Positions 1 through 13,389 of a stretch of DNA of 40,550 nucleotides are shown here, piece after piece; the stretch's first letter is position 1, and each line of letters starts with the position of its first letter. Source of the DNA: Gammaproteobacteria bacterium HGW-Gammaproteobacteria-3 (GTDB lineage Bacteria > Pseudomonadota > Gammaproteobacteria > Methylococcales > Methylomonadaceae); contig PGZD01000020.1 in assembly GCA_002843155.1 (NCBI GenBank), positions 1 through 40,550 on the forward strand. The letters run 5' to 3'. A program made the position numbers and the translations under genes. A model generated the notes under the pieces. It was given only the letters and a program-made list of their open reading frames with translations. It had not been told where the DNA came from and searched no databases.

Positions 1-198
1 GAACACATAATGCAGCGCCACGGTCAATTCCACGGTGCCCAGCCCCGCCGAAAAATGACCGCCGGAAATGCTCACCGTGTGCGTTAAAAATTCGCGTAGT
101 TCAGAGGCCAGGGGCTTGAGCAAGGTCTTGGGCAGTTGTCTTAAATCGGCAGGTGAGTCGATAGTCGAGAGCAGCGGAAATTTGTCTGAAGTGGTCAT
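1..198 (-). CDS. dxs: 1-deoxy-D-xylulose-5-phosphate synthase, N-terminal 66 residues (runs off window)
   Basis: Reading the minus strand from the ATG at 198 gives 66 residues that match the start of Dxs: an [15 protein letters not shown] opening, then [22 protein letters not shown] at residues 45-66, the conserved thiamine-diphosphate-enzyme stretch with the GGH motif. Dxs condenses pyruvate and glyceraldehyde 3-phosphate to DXP, the first step of the MEP isoprenoid pathway. The start codon lies one base after the copD stop (TAA-T-ATG), with no strong Shine-Dalgarno sequence, so translational coupling to copD is likely. Its place at the end of the hopanoid gene string suggests it feeds precursor to squalene synthesis. 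The rest of the gene is outside the window. Confidence 0.93.
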
Positions 199-199
199 A

Positions 200-1834
200 T
201 TAATAGAGAGGTTCACGATAGAACATCAGGATGAGCCCTATCTGAAAAAGTGCAAACACTGCAATAAATCCCGCTATGTTTTTGCCGGGACTGTCGAGTT
301 TGAGTTCCAGCCAACGCCCGCAAGCCAGAATCAGCGAAAATACGCCCATTAAGGTATGTCCGACCTGAATTAAAAAAGTGGTTTTGGGTTGGAAACCGAC
401 ATGGGAATGGGCCAGTAACATGAGTCCGCCAAATGCCGCGAGTATCGGAAATACAAAAGGAAGCGTGCCGGTTGTTGAGTTTTCCATGCGCGTTTTGACT
501 TCCATTATGCCCAACATGAACACCAGCAGCGTGGCCAGTCGGTGTTGCAAAATTTCGCCGTTATTGAAAGTGCTTTCCCAGAAACCGATAGGGCCTAAAG
601 GCCAGGATTCGGCATCACTACGGAAAAACAAAAATATACCCAGCAAGACAAAGCCGACCGGCCAGAATTTTGCCCAGTTATGTACGCGCGCCGAATACGA
701 CAGCATGGCAAAAAAGCTCATCACAGTCAGAAAAATGCCGGAAATATTGTGGTTGTAATCCGACCATTCGGTCGCTGCGGGCGAGGGTATTTGCCCGACG
801 ATGGCCACGCGTCCGGCTTCCCCCGCCAACAAGGCTTCATGGCTGGGTGAGGTATAGCGCGGCATGCGGGGGGCAAAAGTATTCAGCACCTCTTGCAGGC
901 TGGCTGTTAAATGCGGAATATCGACGGCTGGCGGTTGTGACGCGAGGCTTGCGGCGGTGAACAACACGGCTATCAGGATCAGGGTTTCGACTTCGATGTA
1001 ATAGGGCACCCGGTACATGAGCGCATGACCGTTGCGCGTGACAAAATAGTCTCGCGCGGTTTTGCGGTTCAGCCAGGCGAAGCCCAGGGCAAGCGTTAAA
1101 GTCAGTATTTTGACCAGCAGTAAATTACCGTAACCGGAACCGATGAAACCGTGCCAGGTGTCGATATAATAAAAGGCGACGGGGAGTCCGGTTGCCACTA
1201 AAAGCGCGACTGCGGCCATGCCGAGTTTGGAAAATTTGCGCAATAATTCAGGCCACAAATCAGCGGCTATTTGCTTGCGTTTGGTTAAGCCCCATAGCGC
1301 CAGTAATTGAAAAATGCCGCCTACCCAGACTGCGGCGCCCAGTTGATGGAATACGCTGAGCGTCATCAACAGCCTGCGGTCTTCGAGACGGCTGGCGCCA
1401 TGCACCAGCCAGGCGCTGGAAATGACCAGTGGTGCGGCGATTGCGGCGGCAATCAACCAATGTTTTTGCGAATATTTATGCGTTTTTAACGAGTAGCGAA
1501 TAAATACGGTCAAGCCTAAAGCGAACACGGCGCGCACCAGGCCTGCCTGAAATTGCATGGTTTCGGCAAAAGCCGGGAAAGGCCAGCGCTCTAACGTCGC
1601 CGTCATCAGCCATATTTTCAGTACGATTTTCAGTACCTGTGAAATGATCAGGGCGTAGGCGCCAAAGTAAGTCAAATTGATGCTTTTGTCGATTAACGCG
1701 TCAGTGTAGACCCTAAGCTTTTGCCAGGGCCGCAGCAGCAGCAAAGTCCAGAGCAAGCCGCCGATGGCCATCGAATAAAAAGCCAGATCGACGCCGCCAA
1801 TCAGTGAGTCAAGATAGTCAGCAATACCTTCCAT
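200..1834 (-). CDS. copD: CopD-family copper transport membrane protein with extended C-terminus
   Basis: The 544-residue protein has about twelve hydrophobic segments and belongs to the CopD family of inner-membrane proteins linked to copper import. Residues about 130-300 resemble the core CopD domain, including [13 protein letters not shown] at 161-173 with His163. After a loop (about 300-360) come roughly five more membrane segments (363-540) with histidines inside or next to them (H431, H476, H478, H493), possible copper ligands. This second half makes it longer than a minimal CopD of about 300 residues. It follows copC by six bases and precedes dxs by one base, so it is part of the same transcript as the hopanoid genes. 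The copper role is inferred from the family and the adjacent CopC. Confidence 0.85.
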
Positions 1835-1840
1835 AAAAAA

Positions 1841-2212
1841 TTACTCGGGTTGGGTAACAAAAAAACGCAGCAAGTCTTCGCTTAAATGGCCGTCGGCCGC
1901 GAAGATTTTTAATTTAATGGCGTATTCGCCCGGCTTTAAAGCCGGCAGTTCAAGCAAGACCTGGCCGGGCTGGGCGCCTTTTTTTGCCTGAATAGTCTGC
2001 ATGGCATCGCCTGCGCTGACCAGAAAAACCTGGGATAAATCCAGTTCGACCTGGCTGTTGAAGCTAAGCTGTACCTGGCTGGCCCGGTTGACCGGAACCG
2101 GACTCAACTGCAATGAAGAATGGGTGACAACAGCATGGGCCCAAGCTGGATGGGAGCCGATCAAGGCTAAAGTCAGGACGGCAAGTAAAGTAAAGAAGTT
2201 AAATTTTTTCAT
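1841..2212 (-). CDS. copC: CopC-family periplasmic copper-binding protein
   Basis: This 123-residue protein has a signal peptide of 25 residues ending AWA, which leaves His26 as the first residue of the mature protein. The first histidine with a later Asp-x-His is the known Cu(II) site of CopC proteins; here the Asp-x-His is DGH at about residues 106-108. The remainder fits the single CopC beta-barrel domain (LSPVPVNRASQVQLSF, ELPALKPGEYAIKLK). The methionine-rich Cu(I) site of classical plasmid CopC is not evident, so this looks like the Cu(II)-only type. An AAGGA ribosome-binding site overlaps the hpnO stop codon 11 bases upstream, and copD follows after six bases. It probably delivers copper to CopD. 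Confidence 0.9.
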   Translation of the reverse strand: MKKFNFFTLLAVLTLALIGSHPAWAHAVVTHSSLQLSPVPVNRASQVQLSFNSQVELDLSQVFLVSAGDAMQTIQAKKGAQPGQVLLELPALKPGEYAIKLKIFAADGHLSEDLLRFFVTQPE

Positions 2213-2223
2213 GGGCTTGTTCC

Positions 2224-3609
2224 TTATTTGCGGTTTTTTAAGGCATGGCCGGCGAGATTCTTGCCCAAGTCCCAGATCGAGCCGGGGATTTGGTGCGTGT
2301 CGGCAATGGTTTTGTCGAAAGCGTTGACGATGTGGTCGCGATCTTCTTGCGTCAGCGTCAACGGCGGCAACAGTTTGACCACGTTCATGCCGTGTCCTGC
2401 CACCTGCGTTAAAATCCTGTGTTCTTTGAATAAGGGAATTGTGATCATCTGGCAGAACAGGCCTTTATTGGCCGCTTCCAGCATGGCCCAGGCCGCTTTC
2501 AGCGACAGGCTTTTAGGGGATTTGAATTCGATGGCGATCATCGAACCTTTGCCGCGCGCTTCTTTCAGAAATTCGTATTTCGAGGCCATGGCATTCAGGC
2601 TGCCGATAATGTCCTCACCCACTTTGGCGCTGTTTTCGACCAGATTTTCCGTTTTGATGACTTCCAGCGTGGCCAGTCCCGCCGCCATGGCCAGGTTGTT
2701 TTTGGAGAACGTGGAGCCATGTACGATAGCCCTATCCATCCGGTTGAATACACTGTCCATGATGTGATGCGTCATCGCGACCGCGCCGACCGGAACAAAG
2801 CCGCCCGATAGCGCCTTGGCCATGCAAATCATGTCGGGTTTGACGTTCCAGTGTTCGATGGCCCAGAACTTACCGGTACGGCCGATGCCGGTCTGAACTT
2901 CATCGGCTACCAACAGGGTGCCGTATTTTTTGCATAAACGCTCTACTTCCGGCAGATAGTGGTCATCCGGCAGATTGACGCCTTTGCCTTGAATGGGTTC
3001 GACGATAAAGGCGGCCACGTCCTTGTTGCTCAGGGCTTGTTCCAGCGCGGCGAGGTCATTGAACGGCACGGCGCTGCAATCGGGCAGCAGAGGACCGAAA
3101 CCTTCGCGGAAAATTTCCTCGCCGTTCAAAGACAGCGCGCCCATCGTCAAACCGTGATAGCCGTGTTCGCAATAAACAATTTTCGAGCGCTTAGTGGTGT
3201 AGCGGGCAAATTTAATCGCGGCTTCCACGGCTTCGGTGCCGGAATTGCAGAAAAATATTTTGTCCAGATTATCCGGCAGGGTCGTCAACAGTTCTTTGCC
3301 GAGCAGGCCGCTGAGTATCGACACGTCAAGCTGCACCAGATTCGGCAGCTCCAGTGTCAAAGCTTCCTGTAAGGCGTTGATGACGGTCGGATGGTTACGG
3401 CCGATGGCAAATACGCCGAAGCCGCTGAGCAGGTCCAGATATTGCTGGCCGTTTTCGTCATAAAGATATTGTCCGGTGGCGCGTTGATAGTTGCGGTCGT
3501 AGCCGATTGTTTTCAAGACTCTGACCATTTGATTATTGAGATGCTGTGCATGCAGCTCAAATTTATCACGGCTGTGTTGGGATAAAAGTTCTTTTATGCT
3601 AAAAGACAT
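2224..3609 (-). CDS. hpnO: Hopanoid C-35 aminotransferase HpnO
   Basis: A 461-residue class III PLP-dependent aminotransferase. CNSGTEAVEAA at 121-131 is the phosphate-binding stretch, ADEVQTGIGRTG at 235-246 carries the PLP-ring aspartate (D236), and K265 in MAKALSGG is the Schiff-base lysine. Class III enzymes include ornithine and acetylornithine transaminases, but the neighbours make the hopanoid enzyme by far the best call. HpnO converts ribosylhopane to aminobacteriohopanetriol, the parent of the aminopolyols typical of methanotrophs. The start has a good AGAGG ribosome-binding site and lies inside the last codons of hpnN (11-base overlap). copC follows 11 bases after the stop. Confidence 0.88.
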   Translation of the reverse strand: MSFSIKELLSQHSRDKFELHAQHLNNQMVRVLKTIGYDRNYQRATGQYLYDENGQQYLDLLSGFGVFAIGRNHPTVINALQEALTLELPNLVQLDVSILSGLLGKELLTTLPDNLDKIFFCNSGTEAVEAAIKFARYTTKRSKIVYCEHGYHGLTMGALSLNGEEIFREGFGPLLPDCSAVPFNDLAALEQALSNKDVAAFIVEPIQGKGVNLPDDHYLPEVERLCKKYGTLLVADEVQTGIGRTGKFWAIEHWNVKPDMICMAKALSGGFVPVGAVAMTHHIMDSVFNRMDRAIVHGSTFSKNNLAMAAGLATLEVIKTENLVENSAKVGEDIIGSLNAMASKYEFLKEARGKGSMIAIEFKSPKSLSLKAAWAMLEAANKGLFCQMITIPLFKEHRILTQVAGHGMNVVKLLPPLTLTQEDRDHIVNAFDKTIADTHQIPGSIWDLGKNLAGHALKNRK

Positions 3610-6238
3610 TGTTGACCTCTGGTTTATGTTTTTTTCCGCTGAACGCAGGCAGCACGACCAATGTGCAAATTAAAGTGAATGAAATGCCGATTGCCAATAA
3701 CAGACCCATGCTGGCCGTGCCCCGATGTGAGGTAAAGGCAAGGCTGGAAAAGCTGCACAAGGTGGTCAATGAACTGAAAAAAACGCCTCTGGCGGTGCTG
3801 CTTTTCAATAAGTCGGCGGCTTCAGACCAGTGTCCGTGCAGGCGATGAGTGATATGGATGCTGCTGTCTATACCCAGGCCCATCAATAGCGGCAGGGCGA
3901 TGATATTGGCAAAGTTGAAGGGATTATTCAACAATACATTGGCCGCTCCAGTCAGCATGGACGCCAGTAACAAAGGGCCGATAATCAGCAGGGTTTGTTT
4001 CAGACTTCTCAAAAGCACGAGCAATAACAAGATGATAGCGACCAGAGCGCCGCCGAAGGCTTCGATAAACGCTTTGACCACTGCATCACCCGAAGCTTGG
4101 TCGGCAACCGGAAGTCCGGACAGGGTATTGTCCACGGCTGTGGTTTCAGCAACAAACCGTTTCAGGTTTTTTGGGTTGTTTTGGTTTTTTGCGGGCGTGA
4201 TCAGAACTTTATAAAGTCCTGATGCGCTGATCCAGTGCTGTGTGATGTCAGGCGGTAAATCATCGAGACCATAGGCTTTGGCGGTCAGGCTGGTGTTTAA
4301 CCGGTGCATGGTATAGGGCAGCAGGCCGAGGATGTTCCTTTCCAGTTGGCTATATTCAAACGCGGGGTCGGCTTTGGCGTCGGCAAACGCCAGATAAGCT
4401 TGAATATGCGCGAGTAAAGTTTCCGGAATTGTCGGCGCTAAGGCAGCATGAGGCGCTGCAATGGCTTTTTGCAAGGTGTCGGCAAAGCGAATCAACGCTT
4501 CTTTCTGATTGTTTGGGGTCAAGGGTTGGTTAAAGCGCTCAAGTTGGGCACCGAGAATCAAGCCCAGTTCTTCGATGACATCCAGTTTCATGTCCTGGTT
4601 ATCCGCGACGAAACTGGCCAGGGTAAACGTTTCATGAACGGAAGGTAATTTTTTAAATTCTGCCGCCAGGGTTTCGGCCTGCCCAAGATTACTGGTGAGG
4701 GCTGTCAGGGCGAAAGGCGATTCGGTATTGGATTTTAGCAGTTCCTTGATGGTGATAACCGATTCGCTGGCAGGATCTCTTAAATTGATCGGATTCGAAT
4801 CAAAGTCGAGTTGGGTCAGGGCAAAACCCGAGGCAAGCGCCAATACAATCGACACGATGCGTATGCCTTTGGCGTAGCGGAAAGGTACGCTGGTGAAGTA
4901 TTCGGCTATTTTTGATGAGGCAATGGGTTTACTGTGTTCAACCGGCATCAAGGCCAGCAAGGCAGGGACGAGGCTTATTGACAGCCCGAGGCCGATAAAC
5001 ATGCCGCCGCTGGAAATGATGCCGAGCTCCGAGACACCGGCATAATCGGTCGGGATGAAAGCCAGAAAACCGATGGCAGTGGTAAAGGCGCATAAAAACA
5101 GCGAGAACCCGATGTTGTTGACGCTGTCTTTGATAGCGTCATTGTTGTTCATTCCTTCGGTTTTGCACTCCCGGTAGCGCAAGTTGATATGGGTTGCGTA
5201 ATCAACACCCAAACCGATATATAAAACGGCAAAGGCCACTGAAATGATATTTAAATGGCCGACCGTCAAGGTAGCGAAACCCGCCGTTAAAATCAGTCCC
5301 ATGATCAGCGCGATAAAGGTGACAAGCAATAGCTTGAATGATCTGAAACCCAGCCATAAAGAGACGCAGACCAGTGTCAGGGAAAGCAGGCCGGACCAAA
5401 GCGCGCCTTTGCTGACGCTTTCGAGTTCTTCGTGTTCCAGCGCTGTTTCGCCGGTGATGCGGATGCGCACGGCGGGGTTTTCGGCCATGATGGCGTTGCT
5501 GGTCTCGTGCGTTGCCCGGTAAGCGTCATCGGCGGACAAAATGTCGCTGAAATCGAATTTGGGTCTGGCAATAACCAGGGTTCTTTTCGAATCGGTGTTC
5601 AGTTTGTTTTCAGCCAGTAGACTTTGCCAGGATAAATGCCGGGACTGTCCGTCGAGTCTGTACGAAATGCTAGCGTCAATGGCTGTCAATAAAGGGTTCA
5701 GGGTTGCCGGCGAAACCTGTTCTTTTTGTTCGAATGCCAGGCGAATGATTTCGAACAGACCGTTGAGGTTATAATTCTGCGCCAGATGCCCGATAAAAGG
5801 TTGGGCATCTGTGAGTTTTTTCGCCAACGCATCAAGTTCATCGAGATCCAGAAACAGCAAGGCCTGTTGCCTGAAAAAAGCATTGTCGGTCGGAATATAG
5901 ACCGATTCAAAAATAGTGCTTTGTTGTTTAAGCTGCGTGGCCAGTTTTTCGGCGGCTTGAGAAGTTTGTTCCGGCGTTTTTCCATCCACGACCATGATAA
6001 AGGTGGAGGCATCTTGAGGAAAGGCTTGTTCGATGCGATGGCGGTTTTTTTGGAACGGCAAATCGGGCGACAGCATGGCCGCAGTGTTGGTGTTAAAGCC
6101 CAGATTATTGACCGTGTAATGCAGGCTGAGTCCGCATAAGAGAGTAATTATCAGCAACAGCGACCAGGGAAAACGCACGACCTGGCGCTCCCACCATAAT
6201 AAAAAACCATGAATTGCAGTGTCAGTTCGTTGAGTCAT
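3599..6238 (-). CDS. hpnN: Hopanoid transporter HpnN (RND/MMPL family)
   Basis: About 879 residues with the RND/MMPL layout: one N-terminal membrane segment, a large periplasmic domain, a bundle of membrane segments (about 260-430) containing GLGVDYATHINLRYRE, a second periplasmic domain, and a second bundle (about 720-870) containing GLGIDSSIHITHRLHG. The paired G-x-G-x-D motifs are the proton-relay positions of the family. HpnN moves hopanoids from the inner toward the outer membrane (established in Rhodopseudomonas). I place the start at the ATG at 6238, one base after the hpnG stop (TAA-C-ATG); a TTG at 6259 would add seven residues and overlap hpnG, but has no better ribosome-binding site. 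The 3' end overlaps hpnO by 11 bases. Confidence 0.88.
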   Translation of the reverse strand: MTQRTDTAIHGFLLWWERQVVRFPWSLLLIITLLCGLSLHYTVNNLGFNTNTAAMLSPDLPFQKNRHRIEQAFPQDASTFIMVVDGKTPEQTSQAAEKLATQLKQQSTIFESVYIPTDNAFFRQQALLFLDLDELDALAKKLTDAQPFIGHLAQNYNLNGLFEIIRLAFEQKEQVSPATLNPLLTAIDASISYRLDGQSRHLSWQSLLAENKLNTDSKRTLVIARPKFDFSDILSADDAYRATHETSNAIMAENPAVRIRITGETALEHEELESVSKGALWSGLLSLTLVCVSLWLGFRSFKLLLVTFIALIMGLILTAGFATLTVGHLNIISVAFAVLYIGLGVDYATHINLRYRECKTEGMNNNDAIKDSVNNIGFSLFLCAFTTAIGFLAFIPTDYAGVSELGIISSGGMFIGLGLSISLVPALLALMPVEHSKPIASSKIAEYFTSVPFRYAKGIRIVSIVLALASGFALTQLDFDSNPINLRDPASESVITIKELLKSNTESPFALTALTSNLGQAETLAAEFKKLPSVHETFTLASFVADNQDMKLDVIEELGLILGAQLERFNQPLTPNNQKEALIRFADTLQKAIAAPHAALAPTIPETLLAHIQAYLAFADAKADPAFEYSQLERNILGLLPYTMHRLNTSLTAKAYGLDDLPPDITQHWISASGLYKVLITPAKNQNNPKNLKRFVAETTAVDNTLSGLPVADQASGDAVVKAFIEAFGGALVAIILLLLVLLRSLKQTLLIIGPLLLASMLTGAANVLLNNPFNFANIIALPLLMGLGIDSSIHITHRLHGHWSEAADLLKSSTARGVFFSSLTTLCSFSSLAFTSHRGTASMGLLLAIGISFTLICTLVVLPAFSGKKHKPEVNNVF

Positions 6239-6239
6239 G

Positions 6240-6941
6240 TTAGCGAGTGAATGCGTCAAGATACCGTGCTGCCAATTTTAAGGTTTTTTGGGCGGCGTTA
6301 AAATGCCGTCCCAGTTTAACGAGCCGTGTCAGTTCGCTGGGGTGTCGGGCCAGATAGCTCAATAACCGCGATAAAACCACGTCGCCTTCGCTGTTTAAAG
6401 CCTGAATAACAGTTTGCGGAAGGCTCATGTCCACAGGGTCGGCAATGGCCCTGATGGCAAGAAAAGGTACATTATGCTGGCGTGCGATTTGAGCGATGGC
6501 GATGCTTTCCATGTCCAGAACGCAGGCTTGTGTTTGTCTTCGTAGTTTTTTTTTGTCCTCGGTCAAAGACACGATGGTTTTGCTTTCTGCCAGACAACCC
6601 GAAATATGGGGCTTTAGTCCGCTTAAAATACGTCGAGTTTCGCTCAGCCAAGGCGATTGAATATCGATGGTTTCCATCTGCCCTGAAACTAAAGTAGCCA
6701 CAAGAGTCAGGTCGCCGGGTTTTAGCGTCTCGTTCAAGGCTCCGGCACAGCCCCAGCTAATGAGACGCTTAGCGCCTCTATCCACTAAGCGTTCGGCGGC
6801 CACTTTGGCGTTGTTTGGGCCTGCGCCGGAGCGGGCTAACACAATACCGGGAGCAATAAACGTACAGCACCCTCTGCCGATCTTTTGGCGGGTGAGGGTG
6901 CTGATTTCTTCAGGTAAAGCCGCGACGATGCCGGTTATCAC
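6240..6941 (-). CDS. hpnG: Hopanoid-associated nucleoside phosphorylase HpnG
   Basis: A 233-residue member of the purine-nucleoside phosphorylase / MTA-SAH nucleosidase fold: AALPEEI near the N-terminus, SGAGPNNA at 38-45, SWGCAGAL at 62-69, the LDMES base/ribose motif at 142-146, and AIRAIADP at 162-169 with the catalytic-type Asp168. In the hopanoid pathway HpnG removes adenine from adenosylhopane to give (phospho)ribosylhopane. The start is a GTG that overlaps the shc stop (GTGA), which implies translational coupling; there is no clear ribosome-binding site. A general MTA/SAH nucleosidase is the alternative, made unlikely by its position between shc and hpnN. Confidence 0.87.
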   Translation of the reverse strand: MITGIVAALPEEISTLTRQKIGRGCCTFIAPGIVLARSGAGPNNAKVAAERLVDRGAKRLISWGCAGALNETLKPGDLTLVATLVSGQMETIDIQSPWLSETRRILSGLKPHISGCLAESKTIVSLTEDKKKLRRQTQACVLDMESIAIAQIARQHNVPFLAIRAIADPVDMSLPQTVIQALNSEGDVVLSRLLSYLARHPSELTRLVKLGRHFNAAQKTLKLAARYLDAFTR

Positions 6942-8893
6942 TGAGAATTGATCGCGTTACGGTATTTGGCCAGTGCCCAGAGCGGGAAAAATTTATCGTA
7001 GCCATGATATTTCAAATAGAAAACCCTCGGAAAGCCGGGTGCGGTAAAACATTTGTCATTCCAGCTACCGTCAGTCAATTGGTTTTTCAGAATAAAATCG
7101 ATACCGGCCTTGACTTCAGGGCAATGGGCTTCACCGGCCGCGATCAGGCCGATAACGGCCCAGGCCGTCTGGAATGCGGTGCTGAAACGGTATTGTCCGC
7201 GAACGCTGTCGTCATGATAAGTAAAATTATCTTCACCCCAGCCGCCGTCGGCGCGCTGCACACTTTTAAGCCAGCGTACCGCCCGGGTGTACAGAGGGTC
7301 GTTTTTAGGGACGGAGGTTTGCTCCAGACCCCATAATACCGACCAGGTGCCGTAGATATAATTGGTGCCCCAGCGGCCGAACCAGGACCCGTCCGTTTCC
7401 TGTTCGCTGCGGATATAGTTCAGGGTACGTTCAAGCGCCGGTAAATATTCATCATGATCTTGAGCGACTTTGGCCATCAGCATGGCGCAGCGCGCAGTGA
7501 CATCGACGGTAGGAGGGTCGAGCAGCGCGCCATGGTCGGCAAATGGAATTTCATTGAGATAATAATAAGTATTATCGACATCGAAAGCACCATAACCGCC
7601 GTTTTCAGATTGCATTCCGACTATCCAGCGCGTGGCCCGATGAATGGATTCATCGAGATCCGGCAGGCCCGAGTCGGCCATGGCAAAAGCGACCAGGCCG
7701 GTGTCGTCGACATCAGGGTAGTGCGGGTTGGCGAATTGGAAGGCCCAGCCGCCACCTTCAAGCTGGGGTTTGGTTATGCGCCAGTCACCGGGCTCGTCTT
7801 GCAGTTGTTTGCTTTTCAGCCAGGCATAAGCGCGGGTCAGGGCGGCGCTGTTACCGACTTTATCGGTTTCCTGCAAAGCCAGGGCGGCCAAACCGGTGTC
7901 CCAGACCGGCGACAGGCAGGGTTGGCAATAAGCATCGTGCTCATTGATGACCAGCAGTTTGTCGATGGCTTTGCGGGCGGTGACGACCTGTTCATGATCG
8001 GCGGGCATACCGAGCAGCAGCATGGCTTCATAAGCGTTGACCATGGCGGGGAAAATGCCGCCCAGGCCGTCTTCGCCATTCAGGCGTTCGATAAACCAGT
8101 CCCTGGCTTTGGCAAAGGCTTTTTCGGTCAGACTTTTTGGGATCAGCGGACGAGTGGCTCGACCTAACCGATCCAGTCCCAGAAAAATCTTGTTGAGTGG
8201 AGTTCTTTCCGGAAAGTAATGTTTTTCCTGGTCGGGGTGCACGAGAAAAAGCTCGAGAATAGACACCTTTTTGGGGTTTTTTGCAGTGGCCTTCAATGTG
8301 CATAACACAAACAGCGGCACCATGACGGCTCTGGACCAGTAAGACACTTTATCCAGATGAAACGGGAACCATTTGGGTAGCAGCATGATTTCCACGGGAA
8401 TGTAAGGCACGCCGCGCCAGGGCAGTTGTTCGAATATGGCCAGGGCGATACGGGTAAACACGTTGGCTTTGGCGGCGCCGCCCTGGCTGAGGATATAGCG
8501 TCTCAGTTTGACCATGTGCGGGGCATCGATGGCGTCCCCCGTCATTTTTAGCGCATAGTACACCTTGATGCTGCAGCTGATGTCGCCAGGGCCGCCGCTA
8601 AATAGAGGGTAGCTGCCGTCTTCAGATTGCCGGGGCCTTAAGTAGTTGGCTATTTTGGCCTGTAACGGCGCGTCGATTTCACCGAGATAATGCATCATCA
8701 TGATGTATTCAGCCGGTATCGTACAATCCGCTTCCAATTCAAACAGCCAATAGCCTTGGGCGTTTTGCAGTTTGAGCAGGTAATCCCGGGCTTTTTCGAT
8801 GGCTTTGTTCAAGTCGGTCGGGTGGCCGGTGATAGCGGTCGATGAACCCTGTAAATCGCGCGTATGGCTATGGGGAATGGCGTCGGTAAACAT
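6938..8893 (-). CDS. shc: Squalene-hopene cyclase
   Basis: The 651-residue length is usual for squalene-hopene cyclase, a monotopic inner-membrane enzyme that folds squalene into hopene or hopanol. The acid catalyst motif is DVDDT at 394-398. QW-type repeats are visible at residues 43-50 (NAQGYWLF), 90-95, 380-386, 425-434 and in the C-terminal part (TDGSWFGRWG, GGWGEDN, TDGSWND). The C-terminal YLKYHGYDKFFPLWALAKY is characteristic of bacterial SHC. One small oddity is glycine after the DVDDT motif, where many homologues have alanine. The ATG has a strong AAAGGAAG site just upstream. It follows squalene synthase by 23 bases and overlaps hpnG by four, fitting a single transcript. Confidence 0.96.
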   Translation of the reverse strand: MFTDAIPHSHTRDLQGSSTAITGHPTDLNKAIEKARDYLLKLQNAQGYWLFELEADCTIPAEYIMMMHYLGEIDAPLQAKIANYLRPRQSEDGSYPLFSGGPGDISCSIKVYYALKMTGDAIDAPHMVKLRRYILSQGGAAKANVFTRIALAIFEQLPWRGVPYIPVEIMLLPKWFPFHLDKVSYWSRAVMVPLFVLCTLKATAKNPKKVSILELFLVHPDQEKHYFPERTPLNKIFLGLDRLGRATRPLIPKSLTEKAFAKARDWFIERLNGEDGLGGIFPAMVNAYEAMLLLGMPADHEQVVTARKAIDKLLVINEHDAYCQPCLSPVWDTGLAALALQETDKVGNSAALTRAYAWLKSKQLQDEPGDWRITKPQLEGGGWAFQFANPHYPDVDDTGLVAFAMADSGLPDLDESIHRATRWIVGMQSENGGYGAFDVDNTYYYLNEIPFADHGALLDPPTVDVTARCAMLMAKVAQDHDEYLPALERTLNYIRSEQETDGSWFGRWGTNYIYGTWSVLWGLEQTSVPKNDPLYTRAVRWLKSVQRADGGWGEDNFTYHDDSVRGQYRFSTAFQTAWAVIGLIAAGEAHCPEVKAGIDFILKNQLTDGSWNDKCFTAPGFPRVFYLKYHGYDKFFPLWALAKYRNAINSQ

Positions 8894-8916
8894 GATGCTT
8901 CCTTTAAAGTGCTGAT

Positions 8917-10005
8917 TTAAGCTTTCAAAGATGGGGGTGAATAAGTCCAGCCGGGCGTCTTGAGGTTGCGGCTGGCCTGATTGAACAACCAGGACAGTAA
9001 CAGATTGCTGCGTCCGGCCAAACGTGTCGCGGCAATGGTCGCCTTGACACTGTCACGGCTGATCTTGACCTGATTGGAGTTTTTAAAATCAAGATTCATT
9101 TTGATTTTCCGCAAAGTCAATACCGACATGCCAAGAGCCCACAGGCAGAAATTGCGGATGCCGGTTTCATGCGCGGGAATGAGTTGCGTATAAGTCAGAG
9201 CATTTTGTAAATGACCTTGGGCAATACTGATCAAGTGCACCAGGCCGGTGCGAAAATTCTCATCGTCGGTTGCAGGCGTCAGTGTGGCCAAATCAAAGCC
9301 GGTTTCGGTGAAGATGTCTTGCGGCAACCAGCAGACGCCCCGTTGCGCATCATCCCAGATGTCTTTCAGGATATTGGTCATCTGCAGTCCTTGGCCGAAA
9401 GAAACCGACAAGTCCAGTAGTTTTTCCTTATGAGCGGCAATTTCGGGGGAATAATGGCAAAAAAGCTTGGCAAGCATTTCGCCGACGCAGCCGGCCACAT
9501 AATAGCAATAGCTGTCCATGTCGGCCAGTGTCGGCAGGCCTTCGCTCAAATCCGAAGCCTGGAACACCGGCATGCCCTCGGCCATGGTCTTGACGCAAGT
9601 CGCCAGCGCGTCAATTTGCACCGGATCGAATCGATGGGTGATATGGATTACGCGCGGGGTGACTTGTATCAGTTCGTGTTCGGCCGGAAGCGTTTGTTTT
9701 GACAGCAGCGGCGCCAAATCGTCGCTGAATGCTTCAGCACCCTGCCCCGTCTGTGTGATTTCGATAAAGCGGCTGCAAAAGGTTTTTTTCTGATAGACGT
9801 CGAGCGAGACTTCGTCTTCGATGGTATCGACGATGCGGCACAATAAATAGGCATTGGCGACCGGCTCGTATAAATTGGCCGGCAACTGCGGTATGGTCAG
9901 CGCAAAAGTCCGTGAGACGCCTTCGAGCAGTGATGCTTGAAAAGCATTGTCGGAAGTGCTGACGGGTGAGTTGAATTCTGCCATTACTGTTTGTGATCCG
10001 TTCAT
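8917..10005 (-). CDS. sqs: Squalene synthase (single-enzyme type)
   Basis: A 362-residue trans-isoprenyl diphosphate synthase of the squalene/phytoene synthase fold. The two Mg-diphosphate-binding aspartate motifs are DTIED at 60-64 and DIWDD at 215-219, with SRTFALTIPQLP at 31-42 and the YYVAGCVGEML helix at 168-178. The spacing and the long C-terminal part resemble the eukaryote-like squalene synthase found in methanotrophs rather than the shorter HpnC or HpnD. No hpnC, hpnD or hpnE is present, so one enzyme probably makes squalene from two farnesyl diphosphates and NADPH. It is the first gene of the minus-strand string. The start at 10005 has only a weak ribosome-binding site; an in-frame ATG seven codons later is possible. 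Confidence 0.88.
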   Translation of the reverse strand: MNGSQTVMAEFNSPVSTSDNAFQASLLEGVSRTFALTIPQLPANLYEPVANAYLLCRIVDTIEDEVSLDVYQKKTFCSRFIEITQTGQGAEAFSDDLAPLLSKQTLPAEHELIQVTPRVIHITHRFDPVQIDALATCVKTMAEGMPVFQASDLSEGLPTLADMDSYCYYVAGCVGEMLAKLFCHYSPEIAAHKEKLLDLSVSFGQGLQMTNILKDIWDDAQRGVCWLPQDIFTETGFDLATLTPATDDENFRTGLVHLISIAQGHLQNALTYTQLIPAHETGIRNFCLWALGMSVLTLRKIKMNLDFKNSNQVKISRDSVKATIAATRLAGRSNLLLSWLFNQASRNLKTPGWTYSPPSLKA

Positions 10006-10486
10006 AATTTGGCGGCCTTGATCCTGACATGGTGATAAAAAACAGGCTCATTAGGCGGCAATGATAGACTGTTTGTTGGTATTTTGCAAAGTATTGTTGT
10101 TTTCTGGCCAAGACCTGTGGGCGACCTCGGCTGATATATCCTATAAGCAGATAAAACAAGTATTTAGAAGGGTTTGTTGTATTTTTGCAAATAGCCTACG
10201 CTGCCTTTTGTCGGGCGTGATTGAACGACAATTTTTGTTAAAACTGGAGTCGTTTTAAAAAAAATAGTATTCTACTGGGGAATTGATAAATACTTGTATT
10301 GTATAAAATGGTTTAGATTTTTATGAGCTTTTTTGCAGTTTTTCATTATTTGTAGTGAATAAAAACCAATTTTTTGCTGTGTGGTTTTTAGCCAACATGC
10401 AGGTTATTTGTTTTTTGATTTCATTAAAATGAAGCCTGGGTGACGCCGGGTTTTATATTTTTTACGATTTATGTAAGGAGATGCTT
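10006..10486. promoter_or_regulatory. AT-rich divergent spacer between the two hopanoid arms
   Basis: This 481-base spacer separates the divergently transcribed squalene synthase and hpnH genes, so it must hold promoters for both arms. It becomes strongly AT-rich after about 10190, with many T and A runs, unlike the flanking genes. I could not assign a convincing -35/-10 pair: TATAAA at 10302-10307 is the best -10 candidate for the hpnH side, but the TTGATA at 10283-10288 is too close. A 65-codon frame at 10061-10258 has no homology I recognise and is probably not a gene. The long leader before hpnH (up to about 180 bases) could hold post-transcriptional control, but no specific structure is evident. 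Confidence 0.45.
10475..10480 (+). promoter_or_regulatory. Ribosome-binding site that sets the hpnH start
   Basis: AAGGAG directly abuts an ATG at 10481, which is too close to serve that codon. It lies six bases before an in-frame GTG at 10487, the normal distance. The GTG start also gives the N-terminus MGVPLRQQ, which fits HpnH proteins as I know them. Confidence 0.8.
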
Positions 10487-11599
10487 GTGGGTGTTCCATT
10501 ACGTCAGCAGTTGGCTGTGGGTAGTTATCTGATTAAGCAAAAATTGAAAAGGGTAGAGCGCTATCCTTTGGTGTTAATGCTGGAGCCGTTGTTCCGGTGT
10601 AATCTTGCCTGCGCCGGGTGCGGAAAAATAGATTATCCCGATGAGATCCTCAATAAACGTTTATCCGTCGATGAATGCTTGCAAGCGGTTGACGAATGCG
10701 GCGCCCCGATGGTTTCGATACCCGGAGGCGAGCCTTTGATTCATAAGGACATGCCGAAAATTGTCGAAGGTATAATTGCACGCAAAAAATATGTTTACTT
10801 ATGCACCAATGCCTTATTGTTAAAAAAACGCATAGATGATTACCAGCCGTCACCTTATCTGACATTCTCGATTCACCTGGACGGTAATCGCGAACGCCAT
10901 GACGCTTCGGTTTGTGAAGAGGGCGTTTTCGATCGGGCGGTGGAAGCCATCAAGCTGGCTTTGGATAAGGGTTTTAGGGTCACTATCAACTGTACTTTAT
11001 TTCAGGGCGAAAAAGCGCAAGAGGTCGCGGACTTTTTGGATTATGCGATGGAATTGGGTGTTGAAGGTATAACCATCGCGCCGGGTTTCAGTTATGAACA
11101 CGCCCCGCAACAAGACGTATTCATCAAAGGTCGGGATGTCAAGGATTTGTTTCGCGGTATTTTTAGCCTCGGTAAAAACCGGCGCTGGAAATTGAATCAT
11201 TCTTCGCTGTATCTGGATTTTCTGGCCGGCAATCAAAGCTATGATTGTACGCCCTGGGGCAATCCAACCCGCAATGTGTTCGGCTGGCAGAAACCCTGCT
11301 ATCTTTTGTCCGATGAAGGTTACGTTGATACTTTTCAGGAATTGCTGGACACCACGCCCTGGGATAAATACGGTAACGCCAGTAATGCCAAATGTTCCAA
11401 TTGTATGGCGCATTGCGGATTTGAGGCCACAGCGGTTGAGGATATGTTGAAAAATCCTGTCAAGGCGCTATTGACTTCAATCAGAGGGCCGCGTACCGAA
11501 GGTGATATGGTGCCGGAACCGGTACCGGTCTATGCAACGGAAAAGTTCAATGACAGTCTTGCGAAAATACCGGTCAAGATTGAAATCCTGGAATCGTAA
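10487..11599 (+). CDS. hpnH: Radical SAM adenosylhopane synthase HpnH
   Basis: About 370 residues. The radical SAM cluster motif Cx3CxxC is at C38, C42 and C45 in FRCNLACAGCGKIDYP, followed by a conserved SIPGGEPL stretch typical of the radical SAM barrel. A C-terminal group of cysteines (CSNCMAHCG) could bind a second cluster or be structural. HpnH couples the 5'-deoxyadenosyl radical from SAM to diploptene, making adenosylhopane, the first step of hopanoid side-chain growth. The GTG start at 10487 is preferred to the upstream ATG because of ribosome-binding-site spacing. The stop codon overlaps the ATG of hpnB (TAATG), so it leads a tight four-gene operon. Confidence 0.95.
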   Translation: MGVPLRQQLAVGSYLIKQKLKRVERYPLVLMLEPLFRCNLACAGCGKIDYPDEILNKRLSVDECLQAVDECGAPMVSIPGGEPLIHKDMPKIVEGIIARKKYVYLCTNALLLKKRIDDYQPSPYLTFSIHLDGNRERHDASVCEEGVFDRAVEAIKLALDKGFRVTINCTLFQGEKAQEVADFLDYAMELGVEGITIAPGFSYEHAPQQDVFIKGRDVKDLFRGIFSLGKNRRWKLNHSSLYLDFLAGNQSYDCTPWGNPTRNVFGWQKPCYLLSDEGYVDTFQELLDTTPWDKYGNASNAKCSNCMAHCGFEATAVEDMLKNPVKALLTSIRGPRTEGDMVPEPVPVYATEKFNDSLAKIPVKIEILES

Positions 11600-12732
11600 T
11601 GGCGGATTGGATCTTGTTTTTGTGCGGATTGTCCGCGCTGTTCTGGTTGTTTATCTTACTGATGCCCTGGCAGGCATGGCGCATAAACGAAGTGCTGGAG
11701 GCCGATGCGGATGCTGTCGATCATTTGGATTTAAGCGCTTTGACCGTGGTCATTCCAGCGCGCAATGAAGCGGAGGTGATTGGCGAAACACTTTTGGCAT
11801 TGACCCGCCAGGGGAAAAATCTGCGTGTCATTCTGGTGGATGACCATTCCACCGATGGCACGGCGGAGATCGCGCGCCAGCTTGGACTGGAGCATTTGAC
11901 TATCATTCAGGGTCGGCCTTTACCCAGAGCCTGGAGCGGTAAGCTTTGGGCTCAGGAGCAAGGCCTGGCGGCGGTGCAGACACCTTTAACCTTGTTGCTC
12001 GATGCCGATATCAAGCTGGCGCCCGGCTTGATAAAAAGCCTTGTGGTCAAGCAGGAATCCAAAGGTTTGCATTTTGTGTCATTAATGGCCGCATTACGTT
12101 TCGAAGCTTTCTGGGAAAAATTGCTGATGCCGGCATTTATTTATTTCTTTAAACTGCTTTATCCTTTTGCCTTGTCCAATAGGCCCGATAGCCGTATAGC
12201 TGCGGCGGCGGGCGGCTGTATTTTGGTCAACACCGAGGCATTGAAACAGATAGGCGGCATGGCGACGATTAAAGATGCGGTTATCGATGATTGTACTTTG
12301 GCGGCTGAAGTCAAAGCGGCTGGCTACAAAACCTGGATAGGCCTGACTCATGGCGCGCAGAGCATTCGTCCGTATACCACGCTGGGCGAAATTTGCCAAA
12401 TGGTGGCGCGCACGGCCTATAGCCAGTTGAATTATTCAGTGCTATGGCTGTTGACATGTACAGCTATCATGTTGGTCATGTACTCGCTGCCGGTCTTGGG
12501 TTTGTTGGTTTTTTCCAAAGATTCGGCGTTATTGGATTTTGCTGTGGTCGTCATCATGGCGGTGACTTATTTACCGGTCTTGCAATTTTATCAGCTTAAC
12601 CCGTTTTGGGTTGTCGGTCTGCCGCTTATTGCAGGGCTTTATTTGCTGATGACCTGGCTGTCCGCGTTGAGATACTGGCGCGGTGAGCGCTCCCGCTGGA
12701 AAGGGCGCAGTTACCAGGTTGTCGATCATTGA
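11599..12732 (+). CDS. hpnB: Hopene-associated glycosyltransferase HpnB
   Basis: A 377-residue membrane-bound family 2 glycosyltransferase. One N-terminal membrane segment (residues 5-23) precedes a GT-A domain with VVIPARNEAEVI at 50-61, VDDHSTDGT at 80-88 and the metal-binding DAD at 135-137; AVIDDCTLAAEVKAAG carries the acceptor-side acidic pair. Three or so membrane segments close the protein (about 280-355). The gene overlaps hpnH by one base and is followed 36 bases later by hpnM. HpnB is found in many hopanoid clusters, but its sugar donor and product are not settled; a role in glycosylating a hopanoid or related lipid is inferred from context. Confidence 0.87.
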   Translation: MADWILFLCGLSALFWLFILLMPWQAWRINEVLEADADAVDHLDLSALTVVIPARNEAEVIGETLLALTRQGKNLRVILVDDHSTDGTAEIARQLGLEHLTIIQGRPLPRAWSGKLWAQEQGLAAVQTPLTLLLDADIKLAPGLIKSLVVKQESKGLHFVSLMAALRFEAFWEKLLMPAFIYFFKLLYPFALSNRPDSRIAAAAGGCILVNTEALKQIGGMATIKDAVIDDCTLAAEVKAAGYKTWIGLTHGAQSIRPYTTLGEICQMVARTAYSQLNYSVLWLLTCTAIMLVMYSLPVLGLLVFSKDSALLDFAVVVIMAVTYLPVLQFYQLNPFWVVGLPLIAGLYLLMTWLSALRYWRGERSRWKGRSYQVVDH

Positions 12733-12768
12733 CTTTTGGCTGAAATGGATTTTAATTTTGGAGTTTTT

Positions 12769-13389
12769 ATGTACCGAATCTTTAAAAGTACCCGTCTGCC
12801 TGCTTTGATTGTGCTGTTTCTGGTTTGCGTGGGGCAAGCCTATGCGGAACAAGACAATGTCGGCGCCAGGGAAGTTGTGGAAAGCTTCCAGTCCGAGTTG
12901 ATAGCGGTCATGAAAAAAGGCAAGGAGCTGGGTTATGAAGGCCGGTTCGACCGGCTTTTCGGCCCTGTCACCCAGAGTCATGATTTGATCAAGATTGTCA
13001 GAATAGTGGTGGGGCGGGAGTGGGACCGCTTGAGCGCTGAACAGCAAAATCAATTGGTTGATGTTTTCACCCGTTTGAGTGTGGCTTCCTATGCGCACAA
13101 TTTCAAGGAATTCACCGGCGAAGCTTTCAAGTTTGACGCAGAAGAGGAAATGGCGCGGGGTGGCGCTATCGTTCATAGTCATATGATTATTCCGGGCGAT
13201 AAGGACGTTAAGTTTGATTATATGTTGAAGAAAAAAGCAAATAGCTGGAAAATAATCAATATTATCGCTAACGGTGTCAGCGACTTGGCCCTGAAAAGGT
13301 CGGAATATACCGCAATCTTGAAGCGCGAAGGCTTTTCCACGCTCATCGCGAAAATCAACGAAAAAATAAACAATTATTCACAAAAATAG
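12769..13389 (+). CDS. hpnM: HpnM, MlaC/Ttg2D-like periplasmic lipid-binding protein
   Basis: About 206 residues with a signal peptide of 23 residues ending in AYA before EQDNVGAREVV. The body (LFGPVTQSHDLIKIVRIVVGREWDRLS, DVFTRLSVASYAHNF, WKIINIIANGVSDLALKRSEYTAIL) is that of the MlaC/toluene-tolerance Ttg2D family, whose members carry phospholipids across the periplasm; HpnM is the hopanoid-cluster version. The ATG at 12769 has a GGAG site six bases upstream, whereas the longer TTG frame from 12736 would place residues before the signal peptide. It lies between hpnB and mlaA. With HpnN and MlaA it plausibly forms a path for hopanoids toward the outer membrane; this is inference. Confidence 0.88.
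   Translation: MYRIFKSTRLPALIVLFLVCVGQAYAEQDNVGAREVVESFQSELIAVMKKGKELGYEGRFDRLFGPVTQSHDLIKIVRIVVGREWDRLSAEQQNQLVDVFTRLSVASYAHNFKEFTGEAFKFDAEEEMARGGAIVHSHMIIPGDKDVKFDYMLKKKANSWKIINIIANGVSDLALKRSEYTAILKREGFSTLIAKINEKINNYSQK

Follow-up and report, generated by a model that had tools for sequence, protein, structure and literature searches.

The copC-copD pair is conserved in the hopanoid locus of Methylococcales and probably acts in copper-dependent processing or export of hopanoids

Hopanoids are the sterol-like lipids of bacteria and serve as major biomarkers for ancient bacteria; for parts of their tailoring and transport, no genes have been assigned. We analysed a stretch of 40,550 nucleotides, hereafter the window, from Gammaproteobacteria bacterium HGW-Gammaproteobacteria-3, a member of the Methylomonadaceae in the order Methylococcales (assembly GCA_002843155.1, contig PGZD01000020.1, positions 1 to 40,550 of the forward strand). 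The window is contig C79, from base 1, of a genome that we refer to as G000. Eight genes in its first 10 kb are arranged on the minus strand, head to tail, in the order sqs-shc-hpnG-hpnN-hpnO-copC-copD-dxs, so that two genes for copper proteins, copC and copD, stand in a row of genes for hopanoid synthesis. The features of this region are as follows.

8917..10005, minus strand: sqs, squalene/phytoene synthase family, first gene of the block (PF00494, 184 bits, cut-off 26)
6938..8893, minus strand: shc, squalene-hopene cyclase (TIGR01507, 902 bits, cut-off 431), gap of 23 bases after sqs
6240..6941, minus strand: hpnG, hopanoid-associated phosphorylase (TIGR03468, 192 bits, cut-off 187), overlap of 4 bases with shc
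3599..6259, minus strand: hpnN, RND transporter for hopanoids (TIGR03480, 930 bits, cut-off 752)
2224..3609, minus strand: hpnO-like class-III aminotransferase (PF00202, 341 bits), overlap of 11 bases with hpnN
1841..2212, minus strand: copC, periplasmic copper-binding domain (PF04234, 44.5 bits, cut-off 23.3), gap of 11 bases after hpnO
200..1834, minus strand: copD, long form of 544 amino acids (PF05425, 64.4 bits, cut-off 32.1, residues 196-297), gap of 6 bases after copC
1..198, minus strand: dxs, first 66 codons only, cut by the contig end (TIGR00204, 53 bits, positions 1-57), gap of 1 base after copD
10481..11599, plus strand: hpnH, adenosyl-hopene transferase, divergent from the block (TIGR03470, 562 bits, cut-off 225)
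11599..12732, plus strand: hpnB, hopene-associated glycosyltransferase (TIGR03469, 409 bits, cut-off 379)
12736..13389, plus strand: hpnM, MlaC-like (TIGR03481, 209 bits, cut-off 160)

The coordinates bear out the eight-gene order that an earlier note on this DNA had described, with gaps of at most 23 bases (23, 11, 6 and 1) and three overlaps (4, 20 and 11 bases). The overlap of 20 bases, between hpnG and hpnN, assumes the listed TTG start of hpnN, and a later start is possible. As hpnH, hpnB and hpnM run divergently at 10481-13389, the minus-strand block constitutes one half of a hopanoid island, and shc, hpnG, hpnH and hpnN, whose joint presence is taken to define a hopanoid gene cluster, all score above curated cut-offs in the window. 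The sqs product reaches 113 bits with TIGR01559, under the cut-off of 287. No HpnO-specific model is among the 25 NCBIfam rows shown for the window proteins; we take the aminotransferase at 2224..3609 to be HpnO, a name that comes from its context, the family match being only to class-III aminotransferases. The eight genes presumably form one transcript. A scan of the block gave 9 promoter-like sites (9.4 expected) and 19 terminator-like sites (15.4 expected from shuffled sequence), numbers that carry no weight for or against a single transcript.

To place the copper genes in context, we searched 151 genomes of the order with the window CopD and found 116 carriers. Up to 20 kb around copD was then compared in 112 genomes, the window included, by matching all open frames to the window proteins; four of the 116 with partial matches (G046, G077, G109 and G111) were left out, and three second copD copies without copC (G143, G092 and G139) stand outside the 112 pairs. 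A pair was scored as directly behind hpnO, or hpnN, when the copC match starts on the same strand at most 900 bases from the hpnO or hpnN match. By this measure 96 of the 112 copC-copD pairs are directly behind hpnO, three are behind hpnN, 12 are behind neither and one is at a contig edge. Of the 12 unlinked pairs, two (G029 and G067) still lie 0.9-1.5 kb downstream of hpnO. The earlier note had proposed that copCD belongs to the hopanoid locus, and had named its absence from this position in close relatives as the finding that would speak against this. The pair is in fact directly behind hpnO in 61 of 66 cases in the window's own family (f1), in 25 of 34 in the second family (f4) and in nine of nine in the third (f6); the single loci of f5, f2 and f3 give 1/1, 0/1 and 0/1. 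In f1 the median of the estimated distance between hpnO and copC is ~11 bases (range -4 to 440, 61 values); in f4 the distance is 20-168 bases (24 values) and in f6 16-202 bases (nine values).

The neighbour on the other side of copD is less constant. Of the 66 f1 pairs, 59 have dxs behind copD and five more run off the contig, whereas none of the 43 pairs of f4 and f6 has dxs there; two of the three single loci in f2, f3 and f5 run off the contig. An opposite-strand hpnM-like gene adjoins copD in 14 of 34 f4 loci and eight of nine f6 loci. Because the neighbour of copD is dxs in one family and often an hpnM-like gene in the two others while hpnO-copC holds, copCD is located inside the hopanoid island. 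Thus, of the position between hpnO and dxs that the earlier note had put up for survey in Methylococcales, the hpnO-copC half is widespread, whereas dxs is, so far as seen, a neighbour in the window's family only and some genera have lost or moved the pair. We therefore dropped dxs from the conserved block: its place beside copD is a family-level addition, and hpnO-copC spans f1, f4, f5 and f6.

A second collection of sequences gave the same picture. Among the best 80 of 190 relatives' loci, in which those named to order or below are Methylococcales, 77 have hpnO-copC-copD. Of the three exceptions, two are truncated at a contig end, and the third, from Methyloprofundus, has no hpnO within 1 kb before copC. 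Named members include Methylomonas, Methylobacter, Methylovulum, Crenothrix, Methyloglobulus and a Gigantopelta symbiont, and in Methylobacter KS41 (L246) copCD is again behind hpnO. Chance insertion of copCD is ruled out by this conservation across the order and in the second collection. An assembly artefact is likewise ruled out, as the same order is present in genomes of one or two contigs (e.g. L117, L118 and L096) and in the second collection.

In a CopD tree built by a quick method, the copies of f1, f4 and f6 each group apart, and copies that have moved (those of f4 genus g34, and G096 and G137) nest among hpnO-linked ones. This nesting makes the hpnO site look ancestral, and the tree as a whole looks like vertical descent from an ancestral hpnO-copC-copD arrangement.

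Two other arrangements were seen. In genus g2, which we take to be Methylotuvimicrobium, hpnN-copC-copD-dxs stands at one place in three of three genomes, and in the one genome viewed for it (G008) sqs-shc-hpnG-hpnN-hpnO stands at a separate place without copCD (loci L064, L066, L068 and L169). The second copD copies of G143, G092 and G139 (L112, L114 and L115), which have no copC match, form their own clade in the CopD tree.

Loci from which copCD is missing were also informative. We examined 13 genomes of the order with shc and no copD (G103 was left out). In eight of these hpnO is followed by dxs, in two (f2) by an hpnM-like gene and in one by other genes, and in two the contig ends before hpnO. 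One genome (G044; L155, 9060-9360) has a remnant of the CopD tail between hpnO and dxs. At the same place in another (G138; L160, 1-640), an internal deletion has joined the beginning of CopD to its end, and copC is missing. Read as decaying copies, these remnants show that the operon has lost copCD from its interior. A match to pmoA or its ammonia monooxygenase (AMO) counterpart is retained in all eight genomes with hpnO-dxs.

The last observation bears on the explanation that had been offered for the linkage, in which CopCD imports copper for the particulate methane monooxygenase (pMMO) and the operon couples this import to the provision of hopanoids for the intracytoplasmic membranes that methanotrophs form. 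Such membranes require high copper (PMC517821, in the part seen), and copCD is described within the pmo/amo operons of Methylosinus trichosporium and beta-proteobacterial ammonia oxidisers (PMC6189053, likewise in part). Within the order, 93 of the 116 copD genomes also have a pmoA/AMO match, a count that could rise if pmoA was missed in drafts. However, shc is present in all 116 genomes with the long CopD. The 151 genomes divide into 93 with copD, shc and pmoA, 23 with copD and shc and no pmoA match, 13 with shc and pmoA, one with shc alone, 15 with a pmoA-type match alone and six with none; genomes of the third and fifth kinds have a pmoA/AMO match and no copD. Taken by itself this contrast is weak, since a missing pmoA may reflect incomplete assembly and a single family accounts for 12 of the 15 genomes with a pmoA-type match alone. 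No pmoA/AMO match was found at the place of copCD in the order genomes. In addition, the copper-responsive copC named in a Methylococcus microarray study belongs to MCA2168-2179, and the part of the main text seen contains no MCA080x/081x tag (PMC4831470).

We next consider carriers outside the order, for which a profile of the long CopD (A1) was run on 369 genomes of the class and 388 of the phylum. In the class searches up to three candidates (CopD) or two (HpnN) per genome were scored after a first look, so that misses are possible; HpnN and HpnA in class genomes were confirmed by curated models. Long CopD was found in 10 of the 369 class genomes (three of the order and seven others), and HpnN in 43, including all 10 with long CopD (hypergeometric p 1.7e-10, uncorrected for relatedness; at family level p 4e-5, a rough value from family totals counted by hand). 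The phylum genomes yielded three carriers besides G000. All 10 carriers outside the order have shc. PF02461, the AMO/pMMO family, is present in three of the seven class carriers outside the order and gave no match in the other four, the three phylum-level carriers being outside that test. In five of the 10, copCD adjoins hpnN: three (G362, G462 and G241) have a tandem hpnN-copC-copD, one (G521) has copC-copD-hpnN and, within 10 kb, shc, hpnG, hpnH, dxs and a weak match to hpnM (HpnN there by BLAST only), and one (G178) has hpnA-hpnN and copC-copD divergently arranged. Thus, elsewhere in the phylum too, a version of the pair is associated with HpnN, the hopanoid exporter. G362 has both the tandem and PF02461, and in G241 and G462 the tandem is present and no PF02461 match was found. 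The tandem in these two genomes, together with shc in every outside carrier, identifies the hopanoid system as the constant partner. In one of the remaining carriers (G323) an epimerase-family protein resembling HpnA adjoins copCD; the other four (G283, G395, G685 and G841) gave no match to the window's hopanoid genes near copCD.

In the order and outside it, then, copCD follows squalene-hopene cyclase better than it follows pMMO, and methanotrophy is not supported as the reason for the linkage. We regard copper supply to pMMO as an unlikely function of this pair. More generally, the presence of copCD in a methanotroph need not mean supply of pMMO.

Gene order can be passively inherited, and one could therefore suppose that copCD joined the operon early and was kept for general copper homeostasis because operon order rarely breaks, with no function in hopanoid metabolism. 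Departures of the pair from its site in at least 10 of the 112 loci, and its loss in several genera that kept their hopanoid genes, would suit such a passenger. It is harder to reconcile with the 10 outside carriers, all with shc and half with copCD beside hpnN in several arrangements, or with the turnover next to copD, where dxs was seen only in f1 and yet hpnO-copC persists in four families. We give this explanation a small share of the probability.

The proteins themselves retain features of copper-binding families. CopC has HA[VI][VI] at its predicted mature N-terminus (the cleavage site being inferred) and DGH in 112 of 112 order copies, and the 10 copies from outside the order have H[AS] and DGH as judged by eye. 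The N-terminal His and the Asp and His of the DxH motif are, we assume, the Cu(II) ligands of CopC. The sole match of CopC among PDB sequences is 5icu, a CopC that is presumably the Methylosinus protein. Both proteins score under the cut-offs of the equivalogs from copper-resistance operons, CopC with 40 bits against 95 (NF033814) and CopD with 68.4 bits against 195 over ~295 positions (NF033808). The 544-amino-acid CopD consists of a CopD N-terminal part and a conserved C-terminal membrane part (~residues 352-544) outside Pfam coverage. An alignment of 16 sequences from more than one class has 66 columns conserved in at least 15, many of them in the C-terminal part, and seven His residues (H145, H163, H362, H431, H476, H478 and H493) are invariant.

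An AlphaFold2 model of CopD (pLDDT 85, pTM 0.88) was compared with known structures. For residues 1-302 the best alignment is to cytochrome bd subunit I (VIA Z 19.7, 284 residues, 4.1 A), followed by subunits of alternative complex III and polysulfide reductase (Z 14.7-17.3; later rows reach at most 11.7), which hints at a shared fold; other folds being missing from the VIA lists carries no weight. This similarity and the seven invariant His residues would be expected if CopD were a haem- or quinone-using redox membrane protein rather than a copper importer, with CopC as its partner, acting on hopanoids or the quinone pool. However, sequence identity to those chains is 7-12%, helical proteins score high in such comparisons, and Foldseek gave no match for the whole model at E < 0.001; a search of PDB sequences with CopD also gave no match. 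We consider the redox proposal very improbable. The C-terminal part (~358-544), folded alone (pLDDT 81), has TMEM45A at Foldseek rank 1 (prob 1.00, E 0.039). TMEM45A is second in VIA (Z 12.4) after a designed helical barrel (13.2), values close to what helical bundles attain simply through their similar packing, and the resemblance can serve as a fold hint at most.

HpnO acts in amination of the hopanoid side chain. The company that copCD keeps with HpnO and HpnN leads us to infer a copper-dependent step in hopanoid metabolism. In our working model, CopC would carry periplasmic Cu(II), bound by its N-terminal His and by the Asp and His of DGH, and CopD, in the inner membrane and with its many invariant His residues, would take, reduce or use the copper delivered by CopC. 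Together they would serve copper-dependent hopanoid processing or export at the periplasmic face of the inner membrane, acting in concert with HpnO and HpnN rather than supplying copper to pMMO. Copper binding by CopC and CopD and their putative role in lipid metabolism are both deduced from sequence. On balance we favour the view that copC-copD is an ancestral member of the Methylococcales hopanoid gene set that serves such a step, and consider it probable, with considerable room for doubt.

Several findings weigh against this proposal. Among the 130 shc genomes of the order, 14 have no copD, several genera having lost copCD and kept their hopanoid genes, and there are the 12 pairs of the order that are behind neither hpnO nor hpnN. 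Half of the 10 outside carriers do not have copCD beside hpnN, and 33 of the 43 HpnN genomes in the class sample have no long CopD, although few candidates per genome were scored. Shared descent inflates the co-occurrence counts. Finally, we found no expression, copper-binding or lipid data for hopanoid-linked copCD in the literature.

The pair resembles the CopC-CopD of the pmo/amo operons of Methylosinus trichosporium and beta-proteobacterial ammonia oxidisers in having a periplasmic one-domain CopC beside a membrane CopD, and differs from it in place, as the window's pair sits in hopanoid loci. The islands of other hopanoid producers similarly group shc, hpnG, hpnH, hpnN, hpnM and dxs; copC-copD is the extra member here. 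The BstA/B/C sterol transport system of Methylococcus also couples an MMPL/RND lipid transporter with partner proteins, but the Bst proteins are shown to bind sterols, in the portion of that report seen (PMC10942540), whereas CopC belongs to a copper-binding family.

A link between hopanoid genes and copC/copD was not found in the literature covered, which was seen in part and did not include the neighbourhood survey in a review of the CopC family (Lawton 2016). In the main text, so far as seen, of a 2025 survey of alphaproteobacterial hopanoid genes, copC occurs 0 times, and the text speaks, for unknown genes near the clusters, of 'no obvious candidate' (PMC12583986). The parts seen of two other papers, PMC9449456 and, on Methylobacter KS41, PMC6119699, list both gene sets and draw no link. 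A cop operon is described in a Methylothermaceae genome, in a main text that, where seen, does not mention hopanoids (PMC4688376). For Methylomonas DH-1, a joint rise of sqs and two dxs genes on methanol is described, with no mention of copC in the part seen (PMC6373157). The link between lipids and copper thus looks to have been overlooked. A copper-protein pair that is conserved within the hopanoid locus across the order, and that adjoins hpnN in other families and in one further class, offers named genes whose knockouts could be screened for a lipid phenotype.

A more specific role can be imagined, in which CopC/CopD is, or metallates, an oxidase that adds extra side-chain hydroxyls (aminotriol to aminotetrol or aminopentol) right after HpnO. 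If true, it would supply the missing oxidase for methanotroph hopanoids; the genes for penta- and hexol hopanoids are called unknown in the survey cited above (PMC12583986, in part). According to the part seen of a lipid study (PMC5100885), aminopentol is reported in Methylomonas, Methylobacter, Methylococcus, Methylocaldum, Methylomarinum and Methylomarinovum; Methylomicrobium alcaliphilum, M. album and the Bathymodiolus symbionts gave no detectable aminopentol, and M. kenyense has 1% of a 3-methyl form. Two of the reported producers, Methylomonas and Methylobacter, carry hpnO-copC-copD. In a Methyloprofundus-like genus (g4), hpnO is followed by dxs without copCD in five of five genomes examined, with no copD match in three of the five; we assign it to the genus of the bathymodiolin symbionts, one of its genomes (G113) being taken as Methyloprofundus sp. 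INp10 (PMC8788690, in part). In genus g2 copCD is behind hpnN, away from hpnO, in three of three genomes (the hpnO locus itself having been read in one). At genus level, producers and non-producers of aminopentol therefore lean to the expected sides. Several facts speak against a simple form of the hydroxylation idea: aminotetrol is present in mussel gill tissue and in M. alcaliphilum, the latter would carry copCD, and Methylovulum, reported with little aminopentol, has hpnO-copC-copD. We regard this role as a long shot.

Two further features of these loci were noted. One genome (G140; L161, 8371-12249) has four unassigned frames of 196-440 amino acids around hpnG, between shc and hpnO, at the frequent site of hpnN. 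The other concerns dxs, two copies of which, in direct orientation, enclose the hopanoid island at 13 of the 80 loci of the second collection (L183-L262; e.g. L187, L246 and L256), and in eight comparable loci the flanking copies are 97-100% identical over 153-573 bases. In G000 the rest of the window's dxs is on contig C65, and a second dxs start, on C131, is connected to C65 through the same 99 bases. Two dxs 5′ ends that differ from each other (window 1-198 and the end of C131) thus run into the start of C65 through the shared 99-base overlap (L132-L134). The dxs pair in this genome reflects recent conversion or duplication, the probable cause of the contig break.

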